A stretch of 64,000 nucleotides of DNA, from assembly GCA_903813345.2 (NCBI GenBank), contig CAIIXF020000003.1, positions 5,975,815 to 6,039,814 on the forward strand, read 5' to 3'. This document shows, in pieces, positions 4,669-52,800 of this stretch. A program made the position numbers and the translations under genes. Position 1 is the stretch's first letter; each line of letters opens with the position of its first letter. The notes below the pieces were generated by a model. That model was given only the letters and a program-made list of their open reading frames with translations. It did no database searches and was not told the origin of the DNA. Source of the DNA: Owenia fusiformis (taxonomy: Eukaryota; Annelida; Polychaeta; Sabellida; Oweniidae).

Positions 4669-7600
4669 TCATAATGTCGGGGAGGAACTGCGTTTCTTAA
4701 CTGGGTCACTTTTGAAACAAAGCAGGTGAAACTTCATTTGACTTTGAAACCTATTCTGACAGTCTTCCATTAACCTGCAAGTAAAAAACAGCAAAGCATA
4801 AGTTACTGTTGAGTGTGAAATATTCATTTTATCAAATAATGTCAAATAATATTAAATATCAAATATTCAAACTGATTACTGACTATCAAATATTACTTTA
4901 CTATCAAATAATCCTTTTAGTAAAATATTACTTATAACTTTCATTTTGTAAAATATTATTTATTATGATTTTTCTATATATATCTATGTACACAGTCAAT
5001 TCACAACAGTACTATTTCAGCTTTGGTAGCTTATGACACTATAAAACTGTATGATACTGCGAAAATGTATGTCACCATGTGTAACCCCCAGTCAATATAC
5101 TCACTTTTTTCCTGCACCCTCATCCATTGGTGGCAAGCAACCGATAGCTTCCTTAATTGAGGTCCTAGAAAAGAAAAAACTCAGATCATAAGAAGATGTA
5201 CTTTTTGTTAAAATGTTAAAGGTTATTCAAACCAATTAATCATTCAAAAAACAATGTTAGAAGAATGGGAATAGATATGGAAGAAAAGAACAAATTGACC
5301 TATTTAAGATTCAAACATGACTGTATCTGCGCCTTCTATAAACTGTGAACAAAGTCACCATTTCACCAGGGGCATATTCGCGTGCAATACCCTTGGTAAT
5401 ACGAGTAATGTGTGACGTCATAACGGCGGACCGTAGTAATGGCGGACCATAATGAATATTCGTAACATTTTGGTGAGTTTTCATGTTCGAATCTTAAAGA
5501 TCTAATAGCAAAGGTTTTGCAAAAATGAATCAATGTAGTATAAAACAAATGTATGTATAATGAAGAAATAAATATATAATGAAAAAAATAGATACGTGCT
5601 TGTAATATTGGTATTAACTTATGATTAAAAAGTGTCACTATCTCTTTCATTTTTAAACAAATATAGGCTCACGTGACATGTGACGCGGGGCAGTCAATTT
5701 TGATCTATCGTAGACCATATCAGTATCAAATTGCCGATATTTCAACCTCGTCTTGCGAGGCCATTTTGATTTGAAACATCTTGAATGTGGTGTCAAAATA
5801 AAGCTGGTCACGCCCACTTTCATAGTTATCAATGAATCATTTACTACGACTACTATATTCATTTAGGAGGCGTGTAAAGTTAACCAATCAGAAAGACAAT
5901 TGTTCCATATATGGCAGTTCATTAACATATTCAGTTTACTACTGCTTTTCGCGTCATGACAACATGAGGGAACGTGAGTAGTAACCAATCAAGATGCCGT
6001 ATTTTATCACGTGAGTTCAGAGTGACAAGTACACGCGTACGACATGTAGTCTGAGCTGATCGTGATGTTGAACAATTTCTTCTCGGAATTTGCCATTTCT
6101 TCCTGTACAAGTTATAACTTATCTCTAATGAATACTAAAGTTTTGGATGAAGATATGAAGCATACGTTTAAATACGAAGCGATTAATTTGACGATCTGAT
6201 TTTGCAATTTGCAATGGCCAATTTACAGCAAGTCTGCGTGTATTTGACAAGAGATAGCCAAGTCTTGTATCTAAATGCTTGTTAAGCCTTACTCAAAAAC
6301 AAGATCCATATTTTCTAAAGTTGATAACTTAAGAAAACCTGTTTTCATAACCTGATTTCCCCGTCAAAAATTCAAACTGAGTAATAGGAATGGATCGGAT
6401 CCTCAGTCTCCTCGAGTCTTCATTCCAGAACTCACATTTTTAGTTGATTCTCCGACCGTCATAGTTAAGTACTTGTCTAAAGTATCCATAATTGCTCTCT
6501 TACTGGACTTGGACACATTTTCCCCTGTATTTTCCCCAGTCAAATTACACCCTCTCGCCGATTTATAATAGCCATTTCTCAGAACCCGGGAATCAGAATC
6601 GCTGATGTTTGCCATATTGAACATGTTGAAATATGTACTGTAATATCTGTATTGCCTGCTACGCGTAATGGTCACGTGACTAGCGTGATACAGGAAAAAT
6701 GGGGAATTTCTAAACAACAATTTTTGGGCACTTTTATTGCAAATTTCAGGTATCTATAAGTGTTTGTGGTATAAAATATCATCCCCAGACATAAATGAAC
6801 ATCCAAACTACATATTTTATTAAGTTTTGGAGCCTTTTTTACTCTTAAATTGACATCTTTAATATACACCTCAGAGCAGGTGTAATATCGTCGAATACAC
6901 CCCTTTGGGCTAGGCACAAAAGCTTTCAAACCCATCACTCCCTTCGGTCATTCGGGGTACAGAAAACGTTTGTGCCTAGCCCTGTGGGGTATATTCAACG
7001 ATATTACCCCTGCTCTTCCTGTCATTCGTATTAAAAATGTAATTCAAAAAATCAGTCTGGCAAAATATGCCCCTTTAAATCATCAAAAAAGGTTCATCAC
7101 AGATCATTTACATGTACATTTTTACTGTAAACCCCCGGTGTAAACCCCTCCTAAAGAGTGGATAGCAATAAATCTAATCTATGTTTATTTTCCTACACTA
7201 ATTTAGTTCTGTTGCTACATATTTTACTCCATACAGTCATACTCTACTTTACTATGACAGTTGTATCTAATATACTGTGTTTATACTGTACCTTATCTGA
7301 GATGTTTTATATATTCCAATGGCATTCTCTATTGCACTTAGATCAACCCTGGCCTGAAACACAAACATAATGCAATCTTTTATATATTCCAATGGCATTC
7401 TCTATTGCACTTAGATCAACCCTGGCTTGAAACACAAACATAATGCAATCTTTTATATATTCCAATGGCATTCTCTATTGCACTTAGATCAACCCTGGCC
7501 TGGAACACAAACATAATGCAATCTTTTATATATTCCGATAGCTTTCTCTATTGCACTTAGATCAACTCTGGCCTGAAACACAAACATAATGCAATCTTTT

Positions 7601-10600
7601 ATATATTCCAATGGCATTCTCTATTGCACTTAGATCAACCCTGGCCTGAAACACAAACATAATGCAATCTTTTATATATTCCGATGGCTTTCTCTATTGC
7701 ACTTAGATCAACCCTGGCCTGAAACACAAACATAATGCAATCTTTTATATATTCCAATGGCATTCTCTATTGCACTTAGATCAACCCTGGCCTGAAACAC
7801 AAACATAATGCAATCTTTTATATATTCCAATGGCATTCTCTATTGCACTTAGATCAACCCTGGCCTGAAACACAAACATAATGCAATCTTTTATATATTC
7901 CAATGGCATTCTCTATTGCACTTAGATCAACCCTGGCCTGAAACACAAACATAATGCAATCTTTTATATAATCCAATGGCATTCTCTATTGCACTTAGAT
8001 CAACTCTGGCCTGAAACACAAACATAATGCAATCTTTTATATATTCCAATGTCATTCTCTACTGCACTTAGATCAACCCTGGCCAAAAATGCAATCTTTT
8101 ATATATTCCAATGGCATTCTCTATTGCACTTAGATCAACCCTGGCCTGAAACAAACATAATGCAATCTTTTATATATTCTGATGGCTTTCTCTATTGCAC
8201 TTAGTTTAGTTTATTGCACTTAGTTTGCCTTTAAAGCCTTTGCCTTATGAGTTAAAGCATTCAATGTTTCAATAAAGAACTTGCCTGTAAAGCCCCATAT
8301 GAGTTAAAGCATTCAATGTTTCAATAAACAACTTGCCTGTAAAGCCCCATATGAGTTAAAGCATTCAATGTTTCAATAAACAACTTGCCTGTAAAGCCCC
8401 ATATGAGTTAAAGCCTGTCACACATTGTATGAGTCTGGAGACCTCCTCTACCACATGTTCACAGACTGTATGAAGAACTCTGGTGACTAGATGAGGTGAT
8501 ATGGCAAACACCTCTGAGTGGATCCCTATCAGACCCATGACCGCTTCCTTAACATAACTCCTGACACCTGAATAATACAAAAAATGTATATGGAGCAGAA
8601 AGGCGAACATATCACTTTTACACTCTGCTGTCAATTGAAGAGGAATTTTTATTCCAAGATATCATAAGTTTGATTCATGAAAGGTATGTATCTATAGGTT
8701 AGTCCATACAATATGACAACCACCTTAGGATAGTGTTTTAACTTCCATATAGCATGGTTGCCTCATATAAATATGCACAATACTCTACATTATCTGTTAT
8801 TTATTATGACAAGACAAACGGTGATATTTTATATCACTTGTCAAAAAAATTAAAAATGGCTGTCAAGTAATTTATCTAGAATGCCCAAAACTTCATCAGA
8901 GTTTGACACTAGTCTGATCTTGCATCTGTACAAACAAGTAGTTTTCCTGGAATTTTGATGACAAGATTTATGTGGATCCCAACTGCCCACGCAGACAGAC
9001 TGTCGCATGCATGCCCATCAGCACAAGATGACAACAAAATTGCATAAAGGTGGGATAAAAATAATTTGTACCTGATGGCCTCTGTGAGTCGTTCCAGTCA
9101 AACTTGCCAGCATACATATTCTGCTCTAGGTGACCAATGATAGCGTTAGACTTCTCCTCAACATACGCATCAAACAACACTTTGTCCAGTCTCCCATATG
9201 TCTCCTCAGCATCCTAGAAATATCATACAACATCTGGAAAACTTGATCTCTTGTGCCTTACTCTAAGGATTTCATTGCAGATTTTATGAGTTTTTTTAAG
9301 TTCCTTTGAACTTTGTTTGCCTATACTATCATAATCAAACATGTTTTATAAGGAATCATCTCATTGGTAGAATTTGTGAAAGTTGTTCAGCAATATACTT
9401 CAAAAACAACATAGAACAGTATGTGCTGACTATATAGAATAAAACATTTTACAGTTTTTACATTCAACCAATCAGAAAGCAGAGGGCTATTATAGACTCA
9501 TCAAGTTCAGAGGTTAACTGAGGATGTAAGAGTGAGAGAAGTTCATTACTTTTACAAAGGGTTGATGATTTGTTTTTACCTGCTGTACAGTTTCTGTTTC
9601 AGGGTATCCATGTTTCTCAAGATTCTCCACTAGGCGTGGTATCATAACATTGATGGTGTGACTACAGTTGCTTAAGACAATTATAAGACGTTTATCCTTG
9701 TTTGGGACTGGATCATCCTGTGTGCTGTCATCCATGTGTGACATTTTAGAAATGATAGAGCGGCGCCTGGAAATTTTGAAAAGTAATATTTGAATTATAT
9801 TTATATCAGTTATTATGCATGGGCTTTTAAGTGAAAGAAAGCTATTGTTATTGATGATCTGAAAGAATGAGCACATAAATGGTCAGTTATCTAAATATGC
9901 ATGTACATGTTTCTAATAACAAGATTCAAATTCCAAATTAATAATTACAAACTAGAAAATTCATCTCCAATTCAACATTTTGACTTTTAAAAATTCAGAA
10001 AAATGTAACCCTGTGATCAATTGAAACTAAAGAATTACAACATTTACTAACTGTTGTTTCTGTTTAGCTCTGTTAGGCAATGATGCATCTAAGTTCCCTT
10101 TCATAGCAAACTAAACAATTACAACATTTACTTACTGTTGTTTCTGTTTAGCTCTGTTAGGCAATGATGCATCTAGGTTCCCTTTCATAGCAAACTAAAC
10201 AATTACAACATTTACTTACTGTTGTTTCTGTTTAGCTCTGTTAGGCAATGAAGCATCTAGGTTCCCTTTCATAGCAAACTAAACAATTACAACATTTACT
10301 TACTGTTGTTTCTGTTTAGCTCTGTTAGGCAATGAAGCATCTAGGTTCCCTTTCATAGCAAACTAAACAATTACAACATTTACTTACTGTTGTTTCTGTT
10401 TAGCTCTGTTAGGCAATGATGCATCTAGGTTCCCTTTCATAGCAAACTAAACAATTACAACATTTACTTACTGTTGTTTCTGTTTAGCTCTGTTAGGCAA
10501 TGATGCATCTAGGTTCCCTTTCATAGCAAACTAAACAATTACAACATTTACTTACTGTTGTTTCTGTTTAGCTCTGTTAGGCAATGATGCATCTAGGTTC

Positions 10601-13600
10601 CCTTTCATAGCAAACTAAACAATTACAACATTTACTTACTGTTGTTTCTGTTTAGCTCTGTTAGGCAATGATGCATCTAGGTTCCCTTTCATCGCAAACT
10701 AAACAATTACAACATTTACTTACTATTGTTTCTGTTTAGCTTTGTTAGGCAATGATGCATCTAGGTTCCCTTTCATAGCAAACTAAACAATTACAACATT
10801 TACTTACTGTTGTTTCTGTTTAGCTCTGTTAGGCAATGATGCATCTAGGTTCCCTTTCATAGCAAACTAAACAATTACAACATTTACTTACTGTTGTTTC
10901 TGTTTAGCTCTGTTAGGCAATGATGCATCTAGGTTCCCTTTCATCGCAAACTAAACAATTACAACATTTACTTACTGTTGTTTCTGTTTAGCTCTGTTAG
11001 GCAATGATGCATCTAGGTTCCCTTTCATCGCAAACTAAACAATTACAACATTTACTTACTGTTGTTTCTGTTTAGCTCTGTTAGGCAATGATGCATCTAG
11101 GTTCCCTTTCATAGCAAGGTGGTGAAGAACTCGTGAGAATGCTTGCATTATGTTAGAACACATTAGCGTAGCTTCCTTTTGTATTGGCCTTTGTTCAAAT
11201 ATCTATAAACCAAATCTTGTGTAGCGTTAAACTTGTTATTCCTGTAGTGTTAAACATGTTGTCTCTTAAACATGTTGTGTCTCATACTTGAGTGGGTTTG
11301 GGGTAGATATCACCCAGAACATATATCATATCTAAGGAGCGGGCGGGACATATTGTATATGTTCCGCTCCAGACTAAATGCGGGCAGATATAATATATCC
11401 ATCCCGCCCCCAGGATTTTTCAAAAAATTTAAAAATTCAAATATTTTAAAAGTTTAAATTTATTTTAAAAGTTTAAAATTTTTAAAAAGTTCAAAAAATG
11501 TGCTAATTAAATTATATTGAACTAAAAGAATATGAGTATTACGGAAATGTTAATATAAATTGTGCTTTTACAGTAAAGACCTATCTTTTGAAAAATTTGG
11601 AATTGGAACGATAGCAAACTAGGTTCAATGACCATGTCAGTAATAGACCATGTATGCCCAATGACCATGTCAGTAATAGACCATGTATGCCCAATGATCA
11701 TGTAAGTCTAATGACCATGTTTAACAGGTATTCCTCTATTATGAAGATGATAAGTCTCACCTCAGCTTCCCCATCCTTGGTCTGCAGCACTACCTCATGT
11801 AAGTGCTGAACTGTCTCATTCACAATGTTCTCAAACAATAGAGGCTGAAATCATCAAAGTAAAGAGAAAGTTAAAGATAAGTTTATTTAGTTTTTATTAT
11901 TTTATATACATGTACTTTCTTTCTAGATTCTGATATTAATTCTTCCCAGTGAACTCCTCATGTCCCTATTGGCTAGCCCTGGATGACGATCAAAATATTC
12001 CCTGATTGGCCAGCCAAACTACCCTCTGATTGGCTAGCCAAACTAATTGCTGATTGGCTAGCCAAACTACCCAATAAATAGCTCTGAATAAAACGATTAA
12101 TTTACAGTTTCAATTTCACAAACTTATCTGACTTCATATTGTCAAGCTCTATTTTTTAAGGGAAGCAAAATTGCAATGTCCCTCATCAAGATGACCTTAA
12201 CTCACCAGTTGTGTCACTCCACCATTTTCATCATTTGTCGCAACTGCCCATGTTTCACAGCTGTTCAACCCATCAATATCTACAAATCCATACAAGCAAT
12301 TTCAGAAACATCATTTTATGGCAAGGAAAGAACCTTTACTGCTGTATATATCAAGTACTTCAAGTACTTGCATTAGTCTCTAATACTTTTTTAAGTTACC
12401 CGGCAGGCCCATAGCTAGCTTTTTCCAAGGGGGTTCAATTTTCAAAAAATTCCATGATCCAGGGGGTTCACATCCACATGTAACAACTTTGGTCCAAAAT
12501 CACTTGGTTTGGAAAGAATGTTTGGCCAGAGGGGGGTTGCTTTACTAACTCACTCAAATTGAATGTATTAATGCTTGTAGCCTGCATGGCTGAATGGTTG
12601 ACTTACCTTCTATAGCTTGGTTGAGAAGTACATTCACACAATTAGACCTCATGTCTAAGGCAAGCTCATGTAGACTTACCTTCTTTAGCCTGATTGAGAA
12701 GTACATTCATACAATTAGACCTCATGTCTAAGGCAAGCTCATGTAGACTTACCTTCTATAGCTTGGTTGAGAAGTACATTCATACAATTAGACCTCATGT
12801 CTAAGGCAAGCTCATGTAGACTTACCTTCTATAGCTTGGTTGAGAAGTACATTCATACAATTAGACCTCATGTCTAAGGCAAGCTCATGTAGACTTACCT
12901 TCTATAGCTTGGTTGAAAAGTACATTCATACAATTAGACCTCATGTCTAAGGCAAGCTCATGTAGACTTACTTTCTATAGCTTGGTTGAGAAGTACATTC
13001 ATACAATTAGACCTCATGTCTAAGGCAAGCTCATGTAGACTTACCTTCTATAGCCTGATTGAGAAGTACATTCATACAATTTGACCTCATGTCTAAGGCA
13101 AGCTCATGTAGACTTACCTTCTATAGCTTGGTTGAGAAGTACATTCATACAATTAGACCTCATGTCTAAGGCAAGCTCATGTAGACTTACCTTCTATAGC
13201 TTAGTTGAGAAGTACATTCATACAATAAGACCTCATGTCTAAGGCAAGCTCATGTAGACTTACCTTCTATAGCTTGGTTGAGAAGTACATTCATACAATT
13301 AGACCTCATGTCTAAGGCAAGCTCATGTAGACTTACCTTCTATAGCCTGATTGAGAAGTACATTCATACAATTTGACCGCATATCTAAGGCAAGCTCATG
13401 TAGACTTTCTATGGAATCAGAGGGAAGTTCCAGGCTGAGTAGAGAATTCACACACGACCTGCAGAGTAATAAATATGGTAAATAAATTGTATTTCCATTC
13501 ATGACGCAATGCATGTCCATTCATAGTCTCTAACATTGGTCTTTGACACTACTACTAAGTGGAAGACTATTTTATATACAGTATTTTATACATTTTCTAT

Positions 13601-28700: not shown

Positions 28701-31700
28701 CTAGTAAATATAGTAAGTTTTGAGGTAAATTTTGAAATGAACAACCAGTGAGACTTTTATTTGAAAGTAGACTGAAAACATAAGTAAATATTAGTCTTTC
28801 ATGTGGTTGTGAGGAAATTGTGTATGTAATACTACAGCTTGGCCTAATTAGTTGCTTGTACTTCTACCAGGGGTTTGCAGTGGGTAATGGACTCAGCAGT
28901 GATGCAACCAATGACAACTCTATCATATACTTCTGGTACTACCATGGCCTCATTGGAACAACGTAAGATTTGTTTTTTTGCTTCTTCTATTTCAAAAAAT
29001 TCACATCTTTGTTATTGCACAATCGTAAGTACATGTATCTGGTATGACAATTTACACTTTTATAACTCTGTCACTTAACAATTGACACATCTTTTTAAAT
29101 TTAAAGGAAAATTGATTCTCAGAGCATGATGTATATTTGAACATGAACTTCTGCAGTGATGTTGTGAATTGAATCAAAATCCAAGAGGAACAATGATATT
29201 TTCATTCCAAATTAATAAAATAAATCTAATATTTGATATATTGTGGTGTTTTAATTTCTGTTTCACTATTCTGTAAATGCCACCATTAGAGTTAAGTAAG
29301 ATGTAGTGTAAAATACATTCTTTGTGCTGTTCCCGCATGGTTCAGGCAACATCCGAAATGGTATTCTGGGTAATCCCTCCTTTAAATATAAAGTCCAAAA
29401 TGCATGTTGTATTTCACACTAATGATTGTATCGTTTTCGTGTCAGGATTCTCAATGTTCCATGTCACATTACATTTGGGCCAGGATTGAATCCCAACTTC
29501 TCAATGTTCCATCTCACATTACATGTGGGCCATGATTGGATCCCAACTTCTCAATATTCCATCTCACATTACATTTGGGCCATGATTGAATCCCAACTTC
29601 TCAATGTTCCATCTCACATTACATTTGGGCCATGATTGAATCCCAACTTCTCAATGTTCCATCTCACATTACATTTGGGCCAGGATTGAATCCCAACTTC
29701 TCAATGTTCCATCTCACATTACATTTGGGCCATGATTGAATCCCAACTTCTCAATGTTCCATCTCACATTACATTTGGGCCATGATTGAATCCCAACTTC
29801 TCAATGTTCCATCTCACATTACATTTGGGCCATGATTGAATCCCAACTTCTCAATGTTCCATCTCACATTACATTTGGGCCATGATTGAATCCCAACTTC
29901 TCAATGTTCCATCTCACATTACATTTGGGCAATGATTGAATCCCAACTTCTCAATGTTCCATCTCACATTACATTTGGGCCATGATTGAATCCCAACTTC
30001 TCAATGTTCCATCTCACATTACATTTGGGCCATGATTGAATCCCAACTTCTCAATGTTCCATCTCACATTACATTTGGGCCATGATTGAATCCCAACTTC
30101 TCAATGTTCCATCTCACATTACATTTGGGCAATGATTGAATCCCAACTTCTCAATGTTCCATCTCACATTACATTTGGGCCATGATTGAATCCCAACTTC
30201 TCAATGTTCCATCTCACATTACATGTGGGCCATGATTGGATCCCAACTTCTCAATGTTCCATCTCACATTACATTTGGGCCATGATTGAATCCCAACTTC
30301 TCAATGTTCCATCTCACATTACATTTGGGCCATGATTGAATCCCAACTTCTCAATGTTCCATCTCACATTACATGTGGGCCATGATTGAATCCCAACTTC
30401 TCAATGTTCCATCTCACATTACATGTGGGCCATGATTGAATCCCAACTTCTCAATGTTCCATCTCACATTACATGTGGGCCATGATTGAATCCCAACTTC
30501 TCAATGTTCCATCTCACATTACATTTGCAGATTATATGAGGCATTGTCTGTCACTCAAGGATTGTTGTCAGGTTGTTGCTGTTGTTGTAGTTTGGCTGTC
30601 TGCCACCTGATCATGATCTTGACTTCACACCCGGTCTTCTTATTACATTCATACTGAAAGTGCAAGATATAGTTTTACTGTTAAGCTTAAAGAGCTCACT
30701 ATGAAACGGAAATGAAAAATAAGATATTTTCAAGCACACTTTAACAGTACATATCTGCAATACAAAATTATCAAAATATATGTAGTAATTTGAAGATTTT
30801 GATTTTATTGCAGCCTATGGAATGCCCTCCAGAAATATTGTTGCACAAATGGAGTCTGTAACTTCTTCAACCCAACATCTTCAGAGTGCAGGGAACAGGT
30901 AATATGGTGAAAAGTATTCACGCTTAAAGATATTCTAAGAGATTCCTATCCATTCTATTGTTCCAGCCCTCAAATGAATCTTAGACTGTTGATTTTGTCC
31001 CAGTCCCATCACCAAGAACGCAATTACACTGTACTATTGATCTATTTTATGACTTGAGTTTGGCAGATTGATAAAATCCGCCAATTAAAAATCTGCCAGA
31101 TCTATTTTGGAAAATCACAGGGAATCTGTGATTTCTTATGATTTCACTTGTGTACTGTACATGCTTTAAGTATTCCTGTATTTGGATGTCAGTGTTATTC
31201 TAACTCTATTACACCTGAATCCCAAAAGCTTATTTCCAGATCAATGATAAAACTTGAAGTCAGTCCTGAATCCGCCAGATTGAATCGCTGCCTATATTTG
31301 AAATTGAGCAATATCCATCAAATTAAGTTTCATTTCCCAAATAGGCTATAGGCCTAAAATCACCCCCTTTGCCCGAAATCAATGATTTGACCCACTTCAA
31401 TTACCAAACCCTAAAGCCAATGGAGCTATAGAAATGATAATACAAATGCATGAAAATAAAATGCTCAAAGACACGTCAAAATCCTTAACTGCCACATGTA
31501 ATAAAATCTGGAATGAATATATCTGGTATAATTGTTTCGTTCAGCAATGCCCACCTGAAACTATATTCATATATTTACCATCTCTAATAATAATTCTTTT
31601 TTAGGTGTCACTAGCAGGTTCTAAGACAGTGGGGATCAACGTATATGACATGTACCAGGATTGCTATGGAGGAGCTGGTAAATATGGCATCTACCATCCT

Positions 31701-34441
31701 CACTTTTCACATCTCTTCAGGAACAACCCTCAAATACAAGAGCAGAGAAAGGTGAGTGGAATTCATAATGATAAGTAGGCCCTATGTATAAATATCAGTC
31801 CAAAAAATGGGTACTGCCATATTGTTAGGGAGCATTTCAAAAGATCGATATCAGAAAAGTAACTGTATTTGTAGTTTGTTCTATTAGGGAGGGAGGGGGT
31901 CATTGGTCTTAAAAGTTAGCGTTCCGACATCATTCCCAGGAATTTTCTTAGCGTATTCTCTTTTTATGTAGTGCCCTTCTGGTACGAAAAATAAAAAAAC
32001 ATGTACACAACAAAAGGAAAATTATACAAAAAATGAGCGGCTTTTCATTTGTTTTCCACAGTGATGACAGTGATACTGAATTCACAAGTCACGACTTGTC
32101 CAGTATTAAACCTACTGCTGATCGTGTATAGAAATACAGATTTGAATAGTTATAGAAATGACTACATTACATGTTATGTTACATAAAGTGTGACTTCCAA
32201 AACAACGCATATCAACATTTCTCAAACTCAGTTATGAGGGGGAGGGAGGGGGTCACAGATTAACTCAGTGCAAATGGTGTTAATATTATCCTACATTGAA
32301 CTTTTGAGATGCTCCCTTATCATGTGGTACTTGCTTTTTGATAATATGGGCAATGTAAGGTACCAATCTGTCATTACATACTTCAAAGCAATTTCATTTC
32401 TTAAAGCATCTTATGATTTGTGAAAGAAAAATGTTTTTTTTCAAAAATATTTTCTTTTAAAAGTTCTCCAATTCAACTTTGATGCAACCACCAGACCCTG
32501 CGAATTTGATAATACATGTTGTACTGCTATTTTCTTTTGAGACTGCTCCCGTCCAACTCTTGACTGTGTGAGGTAATCCCCTGTGCAAATGTTAGTAGGG
32601 GTGAATTTCGTAATACAGGTTCTACTGCAATTTTATTCAGAGACTGCTCCAGTCCAACCCTGGACTAGGTGAGGTAATCCCCTGTGCAAATGTTAGTAGG
32701 GGTGAATTTGGTAATACATGTTCTACTGCAATTTTATTCAGAGACTGCTCCAGTCCAACCCTGGACTAGGTGAGGTACCCCCCTGTGTTAATGTTACAGC
32801 TGAGACAAACTGGTTGAACATTCCAGCAGTAAGGCAAGCTCTCCATATATCAGCCATGTCTCCTGCCACATGGGCAGTATGCAGGTAGGTGAACAATGAC
32901 AATATACAATGACAATAACTTACAACTTTTCGAATTTTCAAGAACAAAACACAGTTTTCAATCAATGATAATCTTAAGATGTCGAGATGCAGGAATCAAA
33001 AATGCTTAGCTGCCTTTAGTTTCCTTCCACATCAATTTTGAAATCTATATTAAACAAATACCAGATTGAATATTTTTAATACTGATGTAGTACTTAGTAA
33101 ACAAACCTGACCTCTTTTGTTACATAAAATTGCCATTTTCTGTTTCAGTGGAGATGTTGGTGAACACTATATAAGAAATTACAATAGTATGGTAGCTCAA
33201 TATAGAAAAGTATTAGCAAAAGGCGTAAGTCAGTTTATTATGTAGAAGCTATAAATTGATAACTGCACCATTTTCCAATATAATGTTAGAAATATGGAAA
33301 TCATTCCATTCCATGTCTTGTCGATTATTTAATATACAGATTATAAATATGATGAAAATCTAATGAACACCAAATCAATGTTCACCATTGAGATTCATGA
33401 TGTGTGAGTCTTGTGTGAAAAGGCAAAGAAAACTGTTAGAATATCTTCAAGGCTAAACCTTTCAATTCCATGTACAGTACATGCAGTACAGGCATGGTAT
33501 GATATCAGTCCTGAATCCATGTTTGGCAGATTTTATCTGCAATCAATTAATGGTTAATAACAGCGTTTATCCTGAATTTTCCAGAAGCGAATCATGGTGT
33601 ACAATGGAGATGTAGACATGGCTTGTAATTTCCTAGGAGACGAATGGTTTGTAGATGCTTTAAATCTGCCTGTGAAAGAGAAACGCAAGCAGTGGTTCTT
33701 CGATGATGGCTCTATGCAAGTAGCTGGCTTTGTGAAACAATATGAACAGCTTTCCTGTGTAACAGTAAAGGTGAGTGAATAAGATCTGTGAACCTCTCTC
33801 ATGTCTTTATAACATTCACAATGAAAGGTTTTTACTTTGATGAATTACCTTTTTCATATTCACCAATGTGCTGTAACCTTTTACCTCATCTGATTGTCTG
33901 TACAATATATTCAGACATTGGGGAGCATCTCAAAAGTTCTATGTAGGATAACCTAACTGTATTTGAACAGCTAATCTCTGACCCACATCCCTTCCCCTCA
34001 TAACTGTATTTGAAAAATGTTGATATGTGTCATTGTATTGAAGTCAAAATATATCTAACATAATATGTAATATACCGTAGTCAATTTTTTATAATTATTC
34101 CAATCTTTTTGTACAGTAATTTTCCAACATAGGTCTATTGAGATGATCCCTTATTTGTCCAAGTTCACCCGAGCCCAATAGGACTTGGGATGGCCTTAAT
34201 TTGTTTTGCAAATCCTCTTTATGCTGCCATAACTTATGGGATTGATTTGGACCTGGTCACTGGTCATCAGCTTTTATTTAGTGTGTGGAGTGTAGACCCC
34301 ACTTTGAGACTTGACTCCAGTTTACAGTATATTAAATTTTATCATATTTATTTTCAGGGCTCGGGTCACTTTGTTCCACATGATAACCCAATAGCAGCTC
34401 TGAAGATGATTTCAACATTTCTACAAAATAAACCATTCTAG
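25738..34441 (+). CDS. CTSA: Cathepsin A-like lysosomal serine carboxypeptidase, 11 exons, 462 aa
   Basis: Peptidase family S10. The vertebrate orthologue is a lysosomal carboxypeptidase that also protects beta-galactosidase and neuraminidase. Exons: 25738-25907, 26493-26604, 26991-27128, 28195-28350, 28871-28962, 30814-30898, 31605-31751, 32742-32884, 33149-33224, 33585-33770, 34358-34441; total 1389 nt in continuous phase. Residues 1-20 look like a signal peptide ending CHA. The oxyanion-hole block [14 protein letters not shown] is at about 72-85. The nucleophile motif GESYGG puts the serine at 170; the acid block [17 protein letters not shown] is at about 379-395; the histidine motif [11 protein letters not shown] puts His at 439. 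[20 protein letters not shown] and [20 protein letters not shown] also match the family closely. The enzyme looks intact. The first exon may begin after a leader intron (CTAG|CAACAGG just before ATGATG). Human CTSA is 480 aa. Which S10 subgroup member it is (CTSA rather than SCPEP1 or CPVL) rests on these motifs and overall similarity. Confidence 0.94.
27886..28048. mobile_element. Small MITE in cathepsin A intron 3
   Basis: About 165 bp between TACAGAAAAACCTGTCAAGT and its imperfect inverse ending GGCTTCTCTGTA. The interior contains further short palindromic blocks such as AAGTGGAACACC and AAGTGTTCCACTT. TA ends would fit a Tc1/mariner-type MITE. Assignment is tentative. Confidence 0.45.
29440..30530 (+). 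repeat. 50-bp minisatellite in cathepsin A intron 5
   Basis: About 21 head-to-tail units at 50-bp spacing; TCAATGTTCC recurs at 29451, 29501, 29551 and onward. Units are nearly identical with a few alternating variants (CATGATTGAAT, CAGGATTGAAT, ACATGTGGGC). Unlike the EXOC2 arrays, the unit does not resemble either flanking exon and carries no splice site, so it is an ordinary intronic minisatellite. Confidence 0.95.
31828..32316. mobile_element. Harbinger-like MITE in cathepsin A intron 7
   Basis: Termini GGGAGCATTTCAAAAG and CTTTTGAGATGCTCCC form inverted repeats, and the element is bounded on both sides by TTA, a 3-bp duplication fitting PIF/Harbinger elements. Internal sequence has no coding capacity. 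A shorter relative with the same ends occupies about 33921-34150 in intron 10, and one end recurs near 58011. Confidence 0.6.
32500..32810 (+). repeat. 101-bp triplication of the cathepsin A exon 8 acceptor region
   Basis: Three units of about 101 bp. Each carries a pyrimidine-rich tract, the acceptor and the start of exon 8. The true acceptor is CAG at 32739-32741 (reading [15 protein letters not shown]). A second, intact CAG lies at 32638-32640 followed by a near-identical coding start ([15 protein letters not shown]). In the first unit, near 32540, the CAG has been lost and the copied exon has an in-frame stop after RLLPSNS. The decoy copies break off within the exon and run on into GTTAGTAGGGGTGAATTT before the next unit. 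Confidence 0.88.
33921..34150. mobile_element. Short relative of the GGGAGCATCTC MITE in cathepsin A intron 10
   Basis: Begins GGGGAGCATCTCAAAAG and ends TTGAGATGATCCC. It shares internal blocks, in reverse orientation, with the element at 31828-32316, such as the segment around ATATCAACATTT and the CATAACTG/CAGTTATG block. The target duplication is not clear. Confidence 0.5.
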
Positions 34442-37804: not shown

Positions 37805-40800
37805 TCAATGCATGTCCATCAGACTTGGTACATTTGACGTATTGATCACAGATTTATTTTTCCTCCTTCTTTTCTTTTTACCGTTTGGTCTTCTTTCCTC
37901 ATTGTTCCTTATTTCTGACACATCTAAGTCAGAAAGTAATGGAGTGACAGAGGAGCCTGCCATATTCTGTATTCTCATACCAATATCATTCTTATTAGGT
38001 TTGTTACGCTCTGAAGGAGGCACCCAGCGTGCACGCTCATCCCCTAATCCCATTCCTCGTTCAGTGGGCTCAGGAGCGGAAGGTGGGTTTATTTTTTCAG
38101 GTATAGGGTTGTTACCTTTCTGTTGTTTTAACATATTCATCTGAAGTTCAGCCATCTTTGATATGTCTTGTTCAGCCATCAATTGGGGTTGAACTTCCAT
38201 TGTAGTATTACTCGGGCTTGTTGGCACTATACCTGGTTGCATTCCTTGTTGAGCACCTGGTGGCATCATCCCTGGTTGAGCACCTGGTGACATCATCCCT
38301 GGATGAGCACCTGGTGGCATCATCCCTGGATGAGCATCTGGTGGCATCATACCTGGTTGCATTCCAGGTTGAGCACCTGGTGGCATCATACCTGGTCGAG
38401 CACCTGGTGGCATCATACCTGGTCTAGCACCTGGTGGCATCATACCTGGTCGAGAACCTGGTGGCATCATCCCTGGTTGCATTCCTGGTTGAGCACCCGG
38501 TGGCATCATACCTGGTTGCATTCCTTGTTGAGCGCCTGGTGGCACCATCCCTGGTTGAGCACCTGGTGGTATCATTCCTGGTTGAACACTCGGTTGTGTC
38601 TGAAATGTGGCACCACCCATGCCTGGTGGCATCCCTGGAACATCATCAGGTAGGGTTTCAGGTGTTATGCCAGGAAAATTTTGACCATGTAGCCAGGTTT
38701 TAAACTGAGTGTATAAATCAGAAGGAAGTGGTTGATTTGCTGTCTGAGCCTGGTTTGCCATATAGTGATAAAAGTACCAGCCCATGTAACGATACCAATC
38801 TTCAAAACTCTGAGCCTGGCCAGGCTGACCGTTGTTGGCCTGGGCAGGTTGGCCATCGTATGAAACAGCCTGATTACCCTGATCATTCTGTTGGTGTTGA
38901 AATTTTGGTCCTCGATTACTCTGTCCTTTAAAAGGTTGCCTAGTCTCAAATTTCTCAACTTTTTGGCTTTGTTCCTCTAAGGCTGCAAACTGTTTTTGTC
39001 TCATCTGTTCATGTTTTATTCGTAGCAGAGCTTCAGCCTTCTTGGCAGCAAGTTTTGCACCTGCAACCAAGTCCTCCATCTGCTGCTTACTTACAATTTT
39101 CTTCTTCTTTGGCTTTGAAGCTTCTTTAAAGCTTGTTGTATTCTTGAACTTTGCCAATAAACTCTGAGCCTCTTCAGATATAGCTGGCTCTTCAATGTTT
39201 GGTGAGGCCACATTTGTGGATGATGGGACCACACCCTTGGATGATGAAGCATCAGACTCATTCGGAATTGGTTCCGACTTTGGTTTACTAGCACCGGGAA
39301 GATTTTTCAACTAAAAAAAACAAATACAACATTACATAACAAACTGACAGGTCTAGAAGTGAATCAGTGATTTTTTTTATTTAGAACCCCAACATTAAAC
39401 AAGTGAGTGATTGCCTACCCTTAAGAAAAAAGCCATGGTAGCCATGATATTCCATGGTGCGTCCATGGTTTTCCATGGAAATTCATGGTTTTTCATGGTA
39501 TTTTCCATGGAATTTCATGGACGTCCATGTTGATCTTCCATGGATATTTACCATGATCTTCCATGGTAATTAGTGGTTTGGTACAATTGGTTTTTCATGG
39601 ACATGCCATGTTTTTACCATTAAGTGACTTGGAGTAAAATCAACAATTATGGCAGGTTTTGTAATTACCAATTCTTCCAAATTGAATTAATGTTTTAATG
39701 AATGACTAATCATAGAGAGAATATGATGCCCCCTCAAATTTTTGAGAAAGTCAACCTCCTAGGCAAAAGCAGAGCGAAGAGACATGTTTACTTGGAGTTT
39801 TTAATCCTATTTGGTTTTATTTGATCAACAATGACACTAATTTGAGAGTTAAGAAACCTCATTAATTAACATAGAACAATGACAACCAAACATTTAAAAA
39901 TTATGCAAATGATCATATATTCCTATTCAAAGACAAATCAATTTTTGATTACTTAAGGGATATGTTTTATGTTTTAAGCCAAATGGTGCTGTTAACCCCC
40001 CTCCCTCCTTCATGACTTCACTTAGGCATTAGATTTCAGTTTGTAGCCATAGGCTTGTGTTTAATCCCCCACCTTAATTTCAAGTCAAAATTCTAAAAAG
40101 TATAATACTTTTCTATGGATTTTTCAGATAATGTGCTCATAAAGGTTAAATGAGACTTTATTTGGAAAAGTTCATTCTGCATTATTCTTTTTTCTGCATT
40201 ATTCTTTTTTCTGCATCCAAAAGACCAAACAAATAGCCATGTAAAACCATGGACTTTCAAAAGATCAAAAGAAAAACCATGGAAAACCATGGCTTTTGAT
40301 TGCACTTTCCAAAACATCAAGAAATATCCATGGAAAAGCATGGCTTTTGATTGCACTTTCCAAAACATCAAAGAAGTAACCATGGAAAAGCATGGCTTTC
40401 GATTGCAATCAACCGACTTCCATGGCTTTTGATTGTAGTTTCCTCAACTTCAAAGAAAGAAACCATGGTTTCTTATTGCATTCTAATGTAAGACATGTAA
40501 TTTAAGAAAAAGAGTTATTTATTTTTCAAATTATTTCACATTAATTTTCATAACTGAATATTAAAGAAAGAATAAGGAAGTATTGAAACAAAACGGAGGT
40601 AGGGCTAGTTTGACTTAATATTTTCCAAAAAGTGTTTGGCCTAAAAAAATCAAACTCTATCTAGTCTTGATCTACACAAAAGCCCTATACATATTTCTCT
40701 TTGAAATATTGTGGCCTAGTCTGTGCTGCATTAACTGCATTATCATATTTCTTTTTAGAAAAGTTACACAATTTTCACATATTTTCTCATTTGTAAGGAA

Positions 40801-49800: not shown

Positions 49801-52800
49801 ACAAAATGCCAGCACCAGTCCTGTTACTTTTGGAACACCCTGTATATCCTTTGATCAGCTGTTTTTGGCACATGAACTCATCCTACTAGAAAGGTAAGAC
49901 TATTTTCTTGAGACATATGGCTTGAAATCTCAAATTTCTCATTCTAAGTCTGAAAGACAGATAAACATTGATTTGTCCATCTGTCTCGCGAAATCCAGTT
50001 TTGGACCATTTGCCTTAAAACCTCTGTCGATAGGATTCCAGTTATTTTTGTTCAACACCAATATAGAAAACTCCCCTGTGACTCCTGGTTCAAAAGCTCG
50101 CCTATTTTCAAAATGGTCACCATTTTTGCCTCAACGAAATTCACCTTTGGCCCTTTTCCTAGCTTTACAAATAATTTCAGGTGTCCTGCATTGTAAAAAG
50201 CCATGTCACTATAAAGAGTAGTTGTATGAAATAATTTTGTTACAAAAGATTGGCAAAAAATTATATCCGTTTTTTTTTATTTTCTGCCATTTTAGCCATC
50301 ATTCACTTTTGAGCAACACCATGTTAACCTAGTACCCATGGTACTATTTTTTTTAATTGAGTGACCATTACTGAAAATGCATCTTTACCAGAGGTCCAAT
50401 GCCCATAATAAGGCATCGGCCTACAAAATTTGAACCAAATCTGTCATCCAGTATTAGTTATTGTCCAAACAAATGGTGATGGGAAAGATGAAGAAGGGAA
50501 GGATGCATGGCTTCTTTTTATCCCTCAAAAACTACATTCAGTGGAATAATGATGCTCTAACTAAACAAAGTGGACTCACAATCAACGAACCGTACATAAT
50601 TTTGTATTTTTAAATGTTTACCTTACAATTACAGGCTCATCATCAGAGTCAGAATCCGAAGATGACTCGCTTGGTGGTGGTGGAGGGGACTCATCACTCT
50701 CAGAAATATTGCTACTCTCATCAATAGCCTTGAGGGCCTTATCAGCAAGTTTAGCTCGCTTACTATAGTCTGAAGCTGTCTTTTCTTTATTTGGATTTTG
50801 TTTTTCTTTCATTTTATTTTCCGATTTATTTGTTTCCTCTTTGTGAGTACTTAATTCTTCAAATAGAGGTTTATTTGGTATCACAAACTTCTCTTGTCTC
50901 TTGTTTGGAACTGTTGGTCGTAACACTTTGTTAATGAGAGAATCAAGAGCATTTTCTTCTTTTGATGTTGACACTCCCCAGCTATTTGTAGCTGCTGCAG
51001 CAGCCATTGCAGCAGCTCTTGCCTTTTCCTCTTCAGATTGTTCTCCTTGGACTTCTACATCCTTAGCCACATCTTCAGGTTGTTGAGATGGATCAACTGG
51101 GAAACCAGGATTCATACCTGGCCCTATCCATGGCCCGCCTGGTCTAAATCCGCCAGGCCCCATAGGACCCATACCCATAAATCCTGGAGGACCCATTGGA
51201 CCCCAGTGGCCTGGAGGTGGACCCCTAGGACCCCATCCTCCTGGTGGAAATCCCCTAGGACCCCATGCTCCTGGTGGCGGCCCTCTTGGTCCCCATCCTC
51301 GAGGTGGAGGTCCTCTCGGGCCCCATTCTCCATGTGGGCCCCATGGATCTCCATATCCTGGGGGTCCTCTTGGACCCATGGAACCTGGAGGTCCTCCTGG
51401 TCCTAGTGGTTTACCTTCCGGAGGTAAAATTACAGGACCTAAACCTGGAGGAGTTGTTCCCAGAACTTCAGATTCCTTTGGAGTAACTGGGTCTGTGAGC
51501 TCATCCTTATGTGCTTCTTTCCAAGCTTTGGAAGCAGCTTCCATAGCCTTTTTCCTCAGAGCCTTCTTTTCGTCCTCCTGTAATTTAAATACAGCATTTT
51601 GTTTCTTTTTGCTCTTCCAATCAACTGTTGGATTCTCCTTTTTTACTTTTTCCACCTTTGCAGCTAAGTCCTCATCAACTTTATGTTTAGTAAGATTTTT
51701 CATGAAATGGCGCTTGTTGCATGTTGGACAATTTAATATTTTCCCAAACTTTTCATGCTTGAGGATGTTCATAGCACATTTGGTTTTACATAAGCTATGA
51801 TTACATGAAAGAGTAATTGGATCAGAGAAAAGGTCATCACACTCTGGACAAAATAGTTCAAGAATCTTGCTGTCTAACACGTTGTCATCAGGATTTTTCA
51901 TATCAGTGTCTTCTGTTTCCAATGTGTTTTCAATTTCTGAAATGGTGTCCTTCATTGCTTTAACTCTTGAAGCAAGATTAACATCAATTTTATAATCCAT
52001 TACATTGTTGTAGAAGAATTTTTCCTTGCATTCGGAGCACTTTAAAACTCGGTTAATTTCTATTATCTTTACCGCACACTTTGTTTTACATAGAGCATGA
52101 CTGCAAGGTAAAATAATTGGATCAGTGAAGAGCTCTTTGCATTCTGGGCAAATGAGAGAAAGCTCTTTGCTATTGTTGTCCTTTACATCTGATACATTCG
52201 TTTTCTCTTGAGACCTTTGTTCTACCTCATCATTTTTGTTGTCCTTTACATCTGATACATTAGTTTTCTCCTGAGCCCTTGGTACTTCCTTCTCATTTTT
52301 AGGTTCTTTCTTCTCTGACTTGGGTCTTTTCTTACCATCATGTATAAAAGTTGGGTTCTTTATTTCTTCCTCTACTCTGGCAGCAAGGGTTTGATCTACT
52401 TTACATTTTTCAAATTTGCTCAGGACTTGCCTTTTATCACATTGTGGACACACAAGAACATTTTTGTTTTTTCCATTCTCCAGTAAAACCTTTGCACATT
52501 TTGTTTTACACAGCACATGGCAGCATCTCAACAAAAGAGGATCTGTCACCAAATCATCACATTGTGGACATATCAATGAAATTGTTAATCTTGCTTCCTC
52601 CTTCTTAGATGGCTTATCAGTAGACTCATTATCAGCTTCACCTGGTTTGATCATGCTAACTTCTGCCTCATTTGATTTTCTTTCATCATTTTGCTGCACC
52701 TTATCAGTATTATTCTCATCAATCTCCTTAACTGGGTTTGTTTTCCCAGTTTCATTCTTATTCTCGGCCATTTCCTTTTTCTGGTTATCATCCTCTCCAA

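Follow-up and report, generated by a model that had tools for sequence, protein, structure and literature searches.

How a transcript can be spliced correctly when its intron is built almost wholly from copies of its own splice junctions is the question raised by the EXOC2 gene of the annelid Owenia fusiformis. The gene lies within a 64,000-nucleotide stretch of contig CAIIXF020000003.1 (positions 5,975,815 to 6,039,814 of the forward strand; assembly GCA_903813345.2), hereafter the window, and its intron 20 carries tandem copies of the exon 20 edge at one end and of the exon 21 edge at the other, leaving a single donor-acceptor pairing that preserves the reading frame. Arrays of like architecture recur in unrelated genes of the same genome. 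The reading that we favor, and consider probable, is that they are tandem duplications at the DNA level that are tolerated: each copy would bring its own splice site, the outermost, exon-proximal sites would be used, and the array would have no selected function.

EXOC2 (Sec5) is encoded on the minus strand between ~21375 and 4672 of the window, in 23 exons including one short exon predicted between 12600 and 11835. Joined exon peptides match the Pfam families Sec5 (PF15469; E 3.1e-69 and 8.6e-22) and TIG (E 6.3e-9), and one joined peptide aligns with yeast Sec5 in PDB (E 2.7e-6) without a gap at the exon 20/21 junction. Exon 20 (8389-8567, 179 nt) is followed by the 1035-bp intron 20 (7354-8388), which starts with GCAAGT and ends with TTTCAG, and then by exon 21 (7292-7353, ~62 nt), whose corrected end at ~7292 is directly followed by the donor GTACAG. 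With CAG/GCAAGT at its start, TTTCAG/GCC at its end (slashes marking the boundaries) and a protein that continues over the junction, intron 20 is a GC-AG spliceosomal intron.

At the donor side, Tandem Repeats Finder (TRF) reports an array at 8246-8414 of a 52-bp unit in 3.2 copies (99% match), in which the 26-bp 3' edge of exon 20 is joined to the intron start. The sequence AG/GCAAGT is present in three copies, comprising the true donor (8389/8388) and decoys at 8337/8336 and 8285/8284, while a fourth copy has decayed. The acceptor-side array (7305-8204; 73 bp in 12.5 copies, 94% match) has a unit to which exon 21 contributes 49 bp and the intron end 24 bp; the true acceptor lies at 7354/7353, and AG stands at the expected place in 10 of the 12 copies, having been lost from those at 8083 and 7426 such that nine of 11 decoys retain it. 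Between the arrays lies a 41-bp link (8205-8245) that by eye resembles decayed fragments of both units, and the arrays together occupy 994 of the 1035 intron bases (~96%). The first-pass annotation of this DNA, which had described an intron made of tandem copies of both flanking junctions, in which the exon 20 edge with its GC donor recurs as 52-bp units and the exon 21 edge as eleven 73-bp units, is borne out by this coverage, by the three GCAAGT donors and by the 12 acceptor copies (11 besides the true one). When the array was searched against the genome at DNA level, with very common words skipped, the only places returned were the intron 20 locus and, next to it, the end of the last copy (window 7302-7341). 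Rfam gave no match to the window at gathering score.

Three donors and 12 acceptors allow 36 pairings, only one of which is open and in frame, and readthrough beyond the true donor meets a stop at AAA CAT TGA. Thus the earlier interpretation holds in its anatomy, its counts (~3 donors, ~10 acceptors), its single productive pair and its stop codon; it fails in the statement that no intron class of this form had been described. Two amphioxus reports (PMC3087553; PMC3902484) describe such arrays, termed mirages, at both 5' and 3' intron boundaries. They occur in the globins BflGb6 and BflGb9, with a unit of 150-160 bp (PMC3087553), in PGBD5 and TnC (PMC3902484) and, with units of 10-72 bp, in Adh3 (Canestro, 2002, as cited by others). 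Judged on sequence, the intron 20 feature is a mirage by structure: its units span an exon-intron boundary (26 exon bp in 52; 49 in 73) on the 5' or 3' side, and many copies retain their GCAAGT or AG signals. The host group reported for mirages is the cephalochordates, outside which Owenia falls, and host group is no defining property of the structure. Regular splicing of the mRNA despite the copies and a copy number that is unstable between haplotypes or tissues are further traits of the mirage class. The Owenia arrays differ from those of amphioxus in their spiralian host, in the existence of one intron arrayed at both ends with little else left, in the GC donor of EXOC2 intron 20 and in the genes affected, which are EXOC2, a carboxypeptidase gene, a Hox4-like gene and several myosins and kinesins.

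Minisatellites at exon-intron boundaries have also been reported in human segmental-duplication genes, with units of ~30 bp in ~4 copies and 27 intron modifications (PMC2812944). The likeness to intron 20 is one of position, and the human cases concern recent primate paralogs and are tied to novel introns or to alternative splicing. The Rogers model, under which introns are created when AG/GT is tandemly duplicated, and human introns derived from tandem arrays (Zhuo, 2007), both as cited in PMC3087553, share with Owenia the tandem duplication of sequence bearing splice signals, whereas the arrays described here are multiplied edges of an existing intron, with no new intron demonstrated. Our literature searches, in which subscription papers were poorly covered, found no annelid report of boundary minisatellites. 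What looks new is the setting in a spiralian genome, where mirages recur.

Two other classes of repeated intron or exon sequence fit less well. Introner-like or transposon-borne introns consist of repeated intron sequence with dispersed related copies, unlike the intron 20 array, which was found at a single place in the genome by the word-limited DNA search and whose units contain exon sequence. Clusters of mutually exclusive exons contain a complete exon in each tandem copy, whereas the intron 20 decoys contain just 49 of the 62 exon bases, with no GTACAG donor, and so no complete decoy exon exists in the intron. This same anatomy bears on the idea that the array is an intermediate in intron gain, its decoy exon pieces being recruited as exons and the array as new introns. 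Such a model was proposed for the amphioxus globins (PMC3087553), and novel introns arising from boundary repeats are reported in human paralogs (PMC2812944). Given partial decoys and a single open pair, we regard it as very improbable for intron 20.

The intron 20 case is not solitary. With an array defined as any TRF row having a period of at least 25 and at least 2.8 copies, the window holds 11, five of which lie on exon edges (two being those of intron 20). EXOC2 intron 17 has 13 copies of an 84-bp unit (10024-11117, minus strand) comprising an exon 3' edge and a GTAAGT donor, the exon peptide giving no match in a single-exon Pfam scan, and intron 14 has 11.1 copies of a 73-bp unit (12600-13407, minus strand) comprising an exon 3' edge and a G/GTAAGT donor. 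The third is an acceptor-edge array (32502-32796, plus strand; 101 bp in 2.9 copies) in a serine carboxypeptidase gene that we take to be cathepsin A-like (CTSA), an exon peptide of which matches PF00450 at E 0.0043, under the curated cut-off. Arrays at 38222-38589 and 51185-51331 lie in long open frames, and those starting at 11626, 29448, 40253 and 47359 were assigned neither to such frames nor to exon edges. An exon edge was sought and none demonstrated for the array at 29448-30527 (50 bp in 21.6 copies), which stands inside the carboxypeptidase-like gene stretch. A shorter minisatellite (662-1001; 16 bp in 21 copies) leaves several frames open.

Beyond the window, four sets of loci were surveyed with the same threshold. 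The myosin set comprised 17 stretches (112 kb) covering 80 of the 92 myosin-head hits listed, chosen on exon hits before arrays were viewed and leaving out 12 scattered hits; the kinesin set comprised 10 loci (32.7 kb) obtained with a preset rule of at least four PF00225 hits within 4.5 kb; the random set, free of gene annotation, was a seeded draw of 100 kb restricted to C1-C3 (stretches L032-L041); and the Hox set comprised 11 of 12 stretches, L005, which overlaps L003, being omitted. Myosin stretches yielded 13 arrays, kinesin two, random 11 and Hox three. When only the best row per place is kept, the counts become 10 for the window, one for Hox, 13 for myosin and 10 for random, with places such as window 38222-38589 and two in L013 being lost and the 15 myosin and kinesin arrays tested below unaffected. 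The similar density in myosin (13 in 112 kb) and random (11 in 100 kb) stretches is as expected from a general tendency to duplication.

Homology-supported exon edges were found for six of the 13 myosin arrays. Three occupy donor edges (L017:2190-2781, L021:3356-3521 and L029:5813-6934) and two acceptor edges (L017:2919-3989 and L017:5327-6423), while at L016:4165-4300 the unit contains only ~4 exon bases. The arrays at L017:2190-2781 and L017:2919-3989 belong to opposite ends of the same intron, which thus provides a second example with arrays on both sides; across its junction, the joined peptide can be aligned in PDB with myosin-Ic (E 0.0025) and with myosin-XV (E 0.0047), neither exon on its own giving a myosin match in Pfam scans. 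Straddling exons were recovered by tblastn over the myosin loci for three of the 13 arrays (L016, L017:5327 and L029:5813), and the other three assignments rest on PDB peptide matches, that of L021 being to myosin-Vc; L029 and L021 peptides gave only sub-cut-off scores against PF00063. No edge was assigned to the remaining seven arrays (L020, three in L027, L028, L029:5696 and L031). Both kinesin-set arrays lie on exon edges, one at a donor edge (L045, truncated by the end of the stretch) and one at an acceptor edge (L046:984-1124, 42-bp units). A further kinesin locus, L052 (C2:23266100-23269400), selected because its array was visible, has 18 acceptor-edge copies of 158-159 bp with ~110 or more exon bases each, and a homeobox exon of presumed Hox4-like type is preceded by 13.4 copies of a 76-bp acceptor-edge unit (L010:479-1497). 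None of the arrays in random stretches was demonstrated on an exon edge, open frames there being read by eye except at L041:7531-7681; three lie in long open frames (L040:2034-2677, L041:1172-1725 and L041:4979-6224).

This recurrence bears on whether the copies were wrongly multiplied or expanded during assembly, tandem arrays being difficult to assemble. The copies differ among themselves, the arrays (0.14 to 2.8 kb) are short relative to long reads and the pattern is repeated in several genes. A published Owenia assembly, which may or may not be the one used here, was PacBio based (PMC9977687). An assembly artefact is accordingly extremely unlikely.

Tolerated duplication would proceed as follows. 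A stretch straddling each exon-intron boundary would have been tandemly duplicated in DNA and its copies then multiplied through unequal exchange or slippage, with the outer copy staying attached to its exon and the remainder ending up inside the intron. Since every duplicate carries its own splice site, the extra copies would be intronic and cost-free, provided that the outermost sites are used. The splicing machinery may prefer the outermost donor and acceptor, for which exon definition would be the simplest reason: exon 20 (179 nt) would be recognized from its acceptor to the first donor and exon 21 (62 nt) from the last acceptor to its own donor, such that one pair alone would be used in the cell. 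Choice of a decoy would produce a frameshift or stop and the RNA presumably be degraded, the array itself being under no selection for function.

The occurrence of like architecture in unrelated genes (Hox4-like, the myosins at L017, L029, L021 and L016, and the kinesins at L045, L046 and L052) supports this proposal. Array ends viewed by eye share few bases (AAGTC in intron 14, GT in L021), which fits ordinary tandem duplication. A mobile-element origin was rejected on the single genomic place at which the word-limited DNA search found the array sequence; copying through RNA was likewise rejected, as each unit holds contiguous genomic exon and intron in genomic order and hence does not derive from spliced RNA. 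In 11 of 12 arrays, splicing at the neighbouring decoy would bring in a stop codon inside the sequence that was read; in the twelfth, kinesin L045, no stop is met there and the frame is shifted. The true exon at the intron 14 array differs from the decoy consensus by five substitutions, all synonymous, while non-synonymous changes and one stop occur among the decoys. Over 11 arrays, differences between true exon and decoy consensus were 14 synonymous to two non-synonymous, compared with 30:25 for decoy alleles (Fisher P 0.02), a result that is suggestive only of the outer copy alone appearing to be coding.

Several results weigh against tolerated duplication as so far set out. The coding contrast is lost when the CTSA array is included, which has two decoys and no real consensus (16:9 versus 31:29, P 0.34), and a version that counted cells and overran array ends gave P 0.68. 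In kinesin L046, which is outside the 12 arrays above, the neighbouring decoy (42-bp unit) would add an open, in-frame insert of 14 residues, and so a decoy need not do harm in every case. Boundary minisatellites of human paralogs are reported to alter splicing, with an alternative transcript retaining the repeat in 66% of intron modifications (PMC2812944). Inertness is thus not to be taken for granted, and our confidence in the proposal was lowered slightly on this account, though it still stands as probable. Nor is placement fully random: eight of the 15 myosin and kinesin arrays, L052 being excluded, occupy exon edges, where 2.7 would be expected (P 0.001) from dropping one unit at random in collapsed loci, with edge numbers estimated at 240 for myosin (120 exons) and 92 for kinesin (on an assumed 46 exons, with 44 listed hits). 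Plain duplication within introns should be at least equally tolerated, and so tolerance alone is insufficient to account for the excess.

The human observations raise the possibility that the arrays regulate their genes, decoy stacks slowing splicing and yielding alternative transcripts or diverting RNA to decay in a manner tuned by copy number. The retention of splice signals in most copies (counting the true sites, 10 of 12 acceptors and three donors) and the presence of several arrays within one gene would be in keeping with this. Recent homogenized copies would retain their signals regardless, however, like arrays occur in unrelated genes, and the amphioxus mirages are described as not disturbing regular splicing (PMC3087553; PMC3902484). 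Regulation is consequently judged improbable.

The excess at exon edges suggests that these edges may be mutational hot spots, at which duplication is linked to transcription or splicing and mirages are left as scars, an explanation that complements tolerated duplication. Besides the myosin and kinesin count, it draws on the second intron arrayed at both edges (L017) and on EXOC2, where four of five arrays lie on edges (P 0.006), in a gene that was selected through the finding itself. Exon annotation is homology-based and incomplete, however, and if one third of edges were missed (1.5 times as many edges), 4.1 arrays would be expected and P rises to 0.015; myosin alone, at six of 13, gives P 0.011 to 0.077. 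A hot spot of this kind is rather unlikely.

Other features of the surveyed loci are recorded here. When an Abd-B-type homeodomain peptide was used as query, 11 homeobox matches fell within C1:17.97-18.47 Mb; as a pair of these is separated by just 350 bp, the C1 cluster would hold ~10 genes, and a gene that we take to be Post1-like lies far from it at C1:56.85 Mb. A search for COX1 in the assembly gave no match. At L003:1138-1330 and 1490-1690, a Hox gene of presumed Post2 type is accompanied ~350 bp upstream by a diverged second homeobox with an open frame, reading WYQNRRMK instead of WFQNRRMK. A myosin gene at L031 and C9:37986009-37994334 shows ~12 tandem matches, differing in score, of one exon piece (head positions ~27-81), and appears to resemble what a mutually exclusive exon cluster would look like. 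Eleven Hox genes are reported for O. fusiformis in the genome paper, all in a chromosome 1 cluster except Post1, which lies downstream (PMC9977687).

The boundary minisatellites found in our literature searches come from lancelets and human paralogs, both chordates, and their repeated presence in a spiralian genome suggests that they are no chordate oddity. Arrays per exon edge number six for ~240 in myosin and two for ~92 in kinesin, near 2.5%. It is possible, and we put it forward tentatively, that exon edges are duplication hot spots in this genome, a few percent of them carrying splice-junction minisatellites and some introns containing little else, and that the outermost of up to a dozen or more near-identical sites is reliably taken. 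Experiments with duplicated splice sites have established a preference for intron-proximal sites. In the Owenia arrays, nature supplies a series of constructs that set near-identical donors or acceptors in competition, and since RNA data would show directly which copy is in use, the question of splice-site choice is testable; if outermost use holds true, the arrays would allow exon definition to be tested in nature against intron-proximal preference. They are also relevant to gene annotation and to models of how introns are gained.

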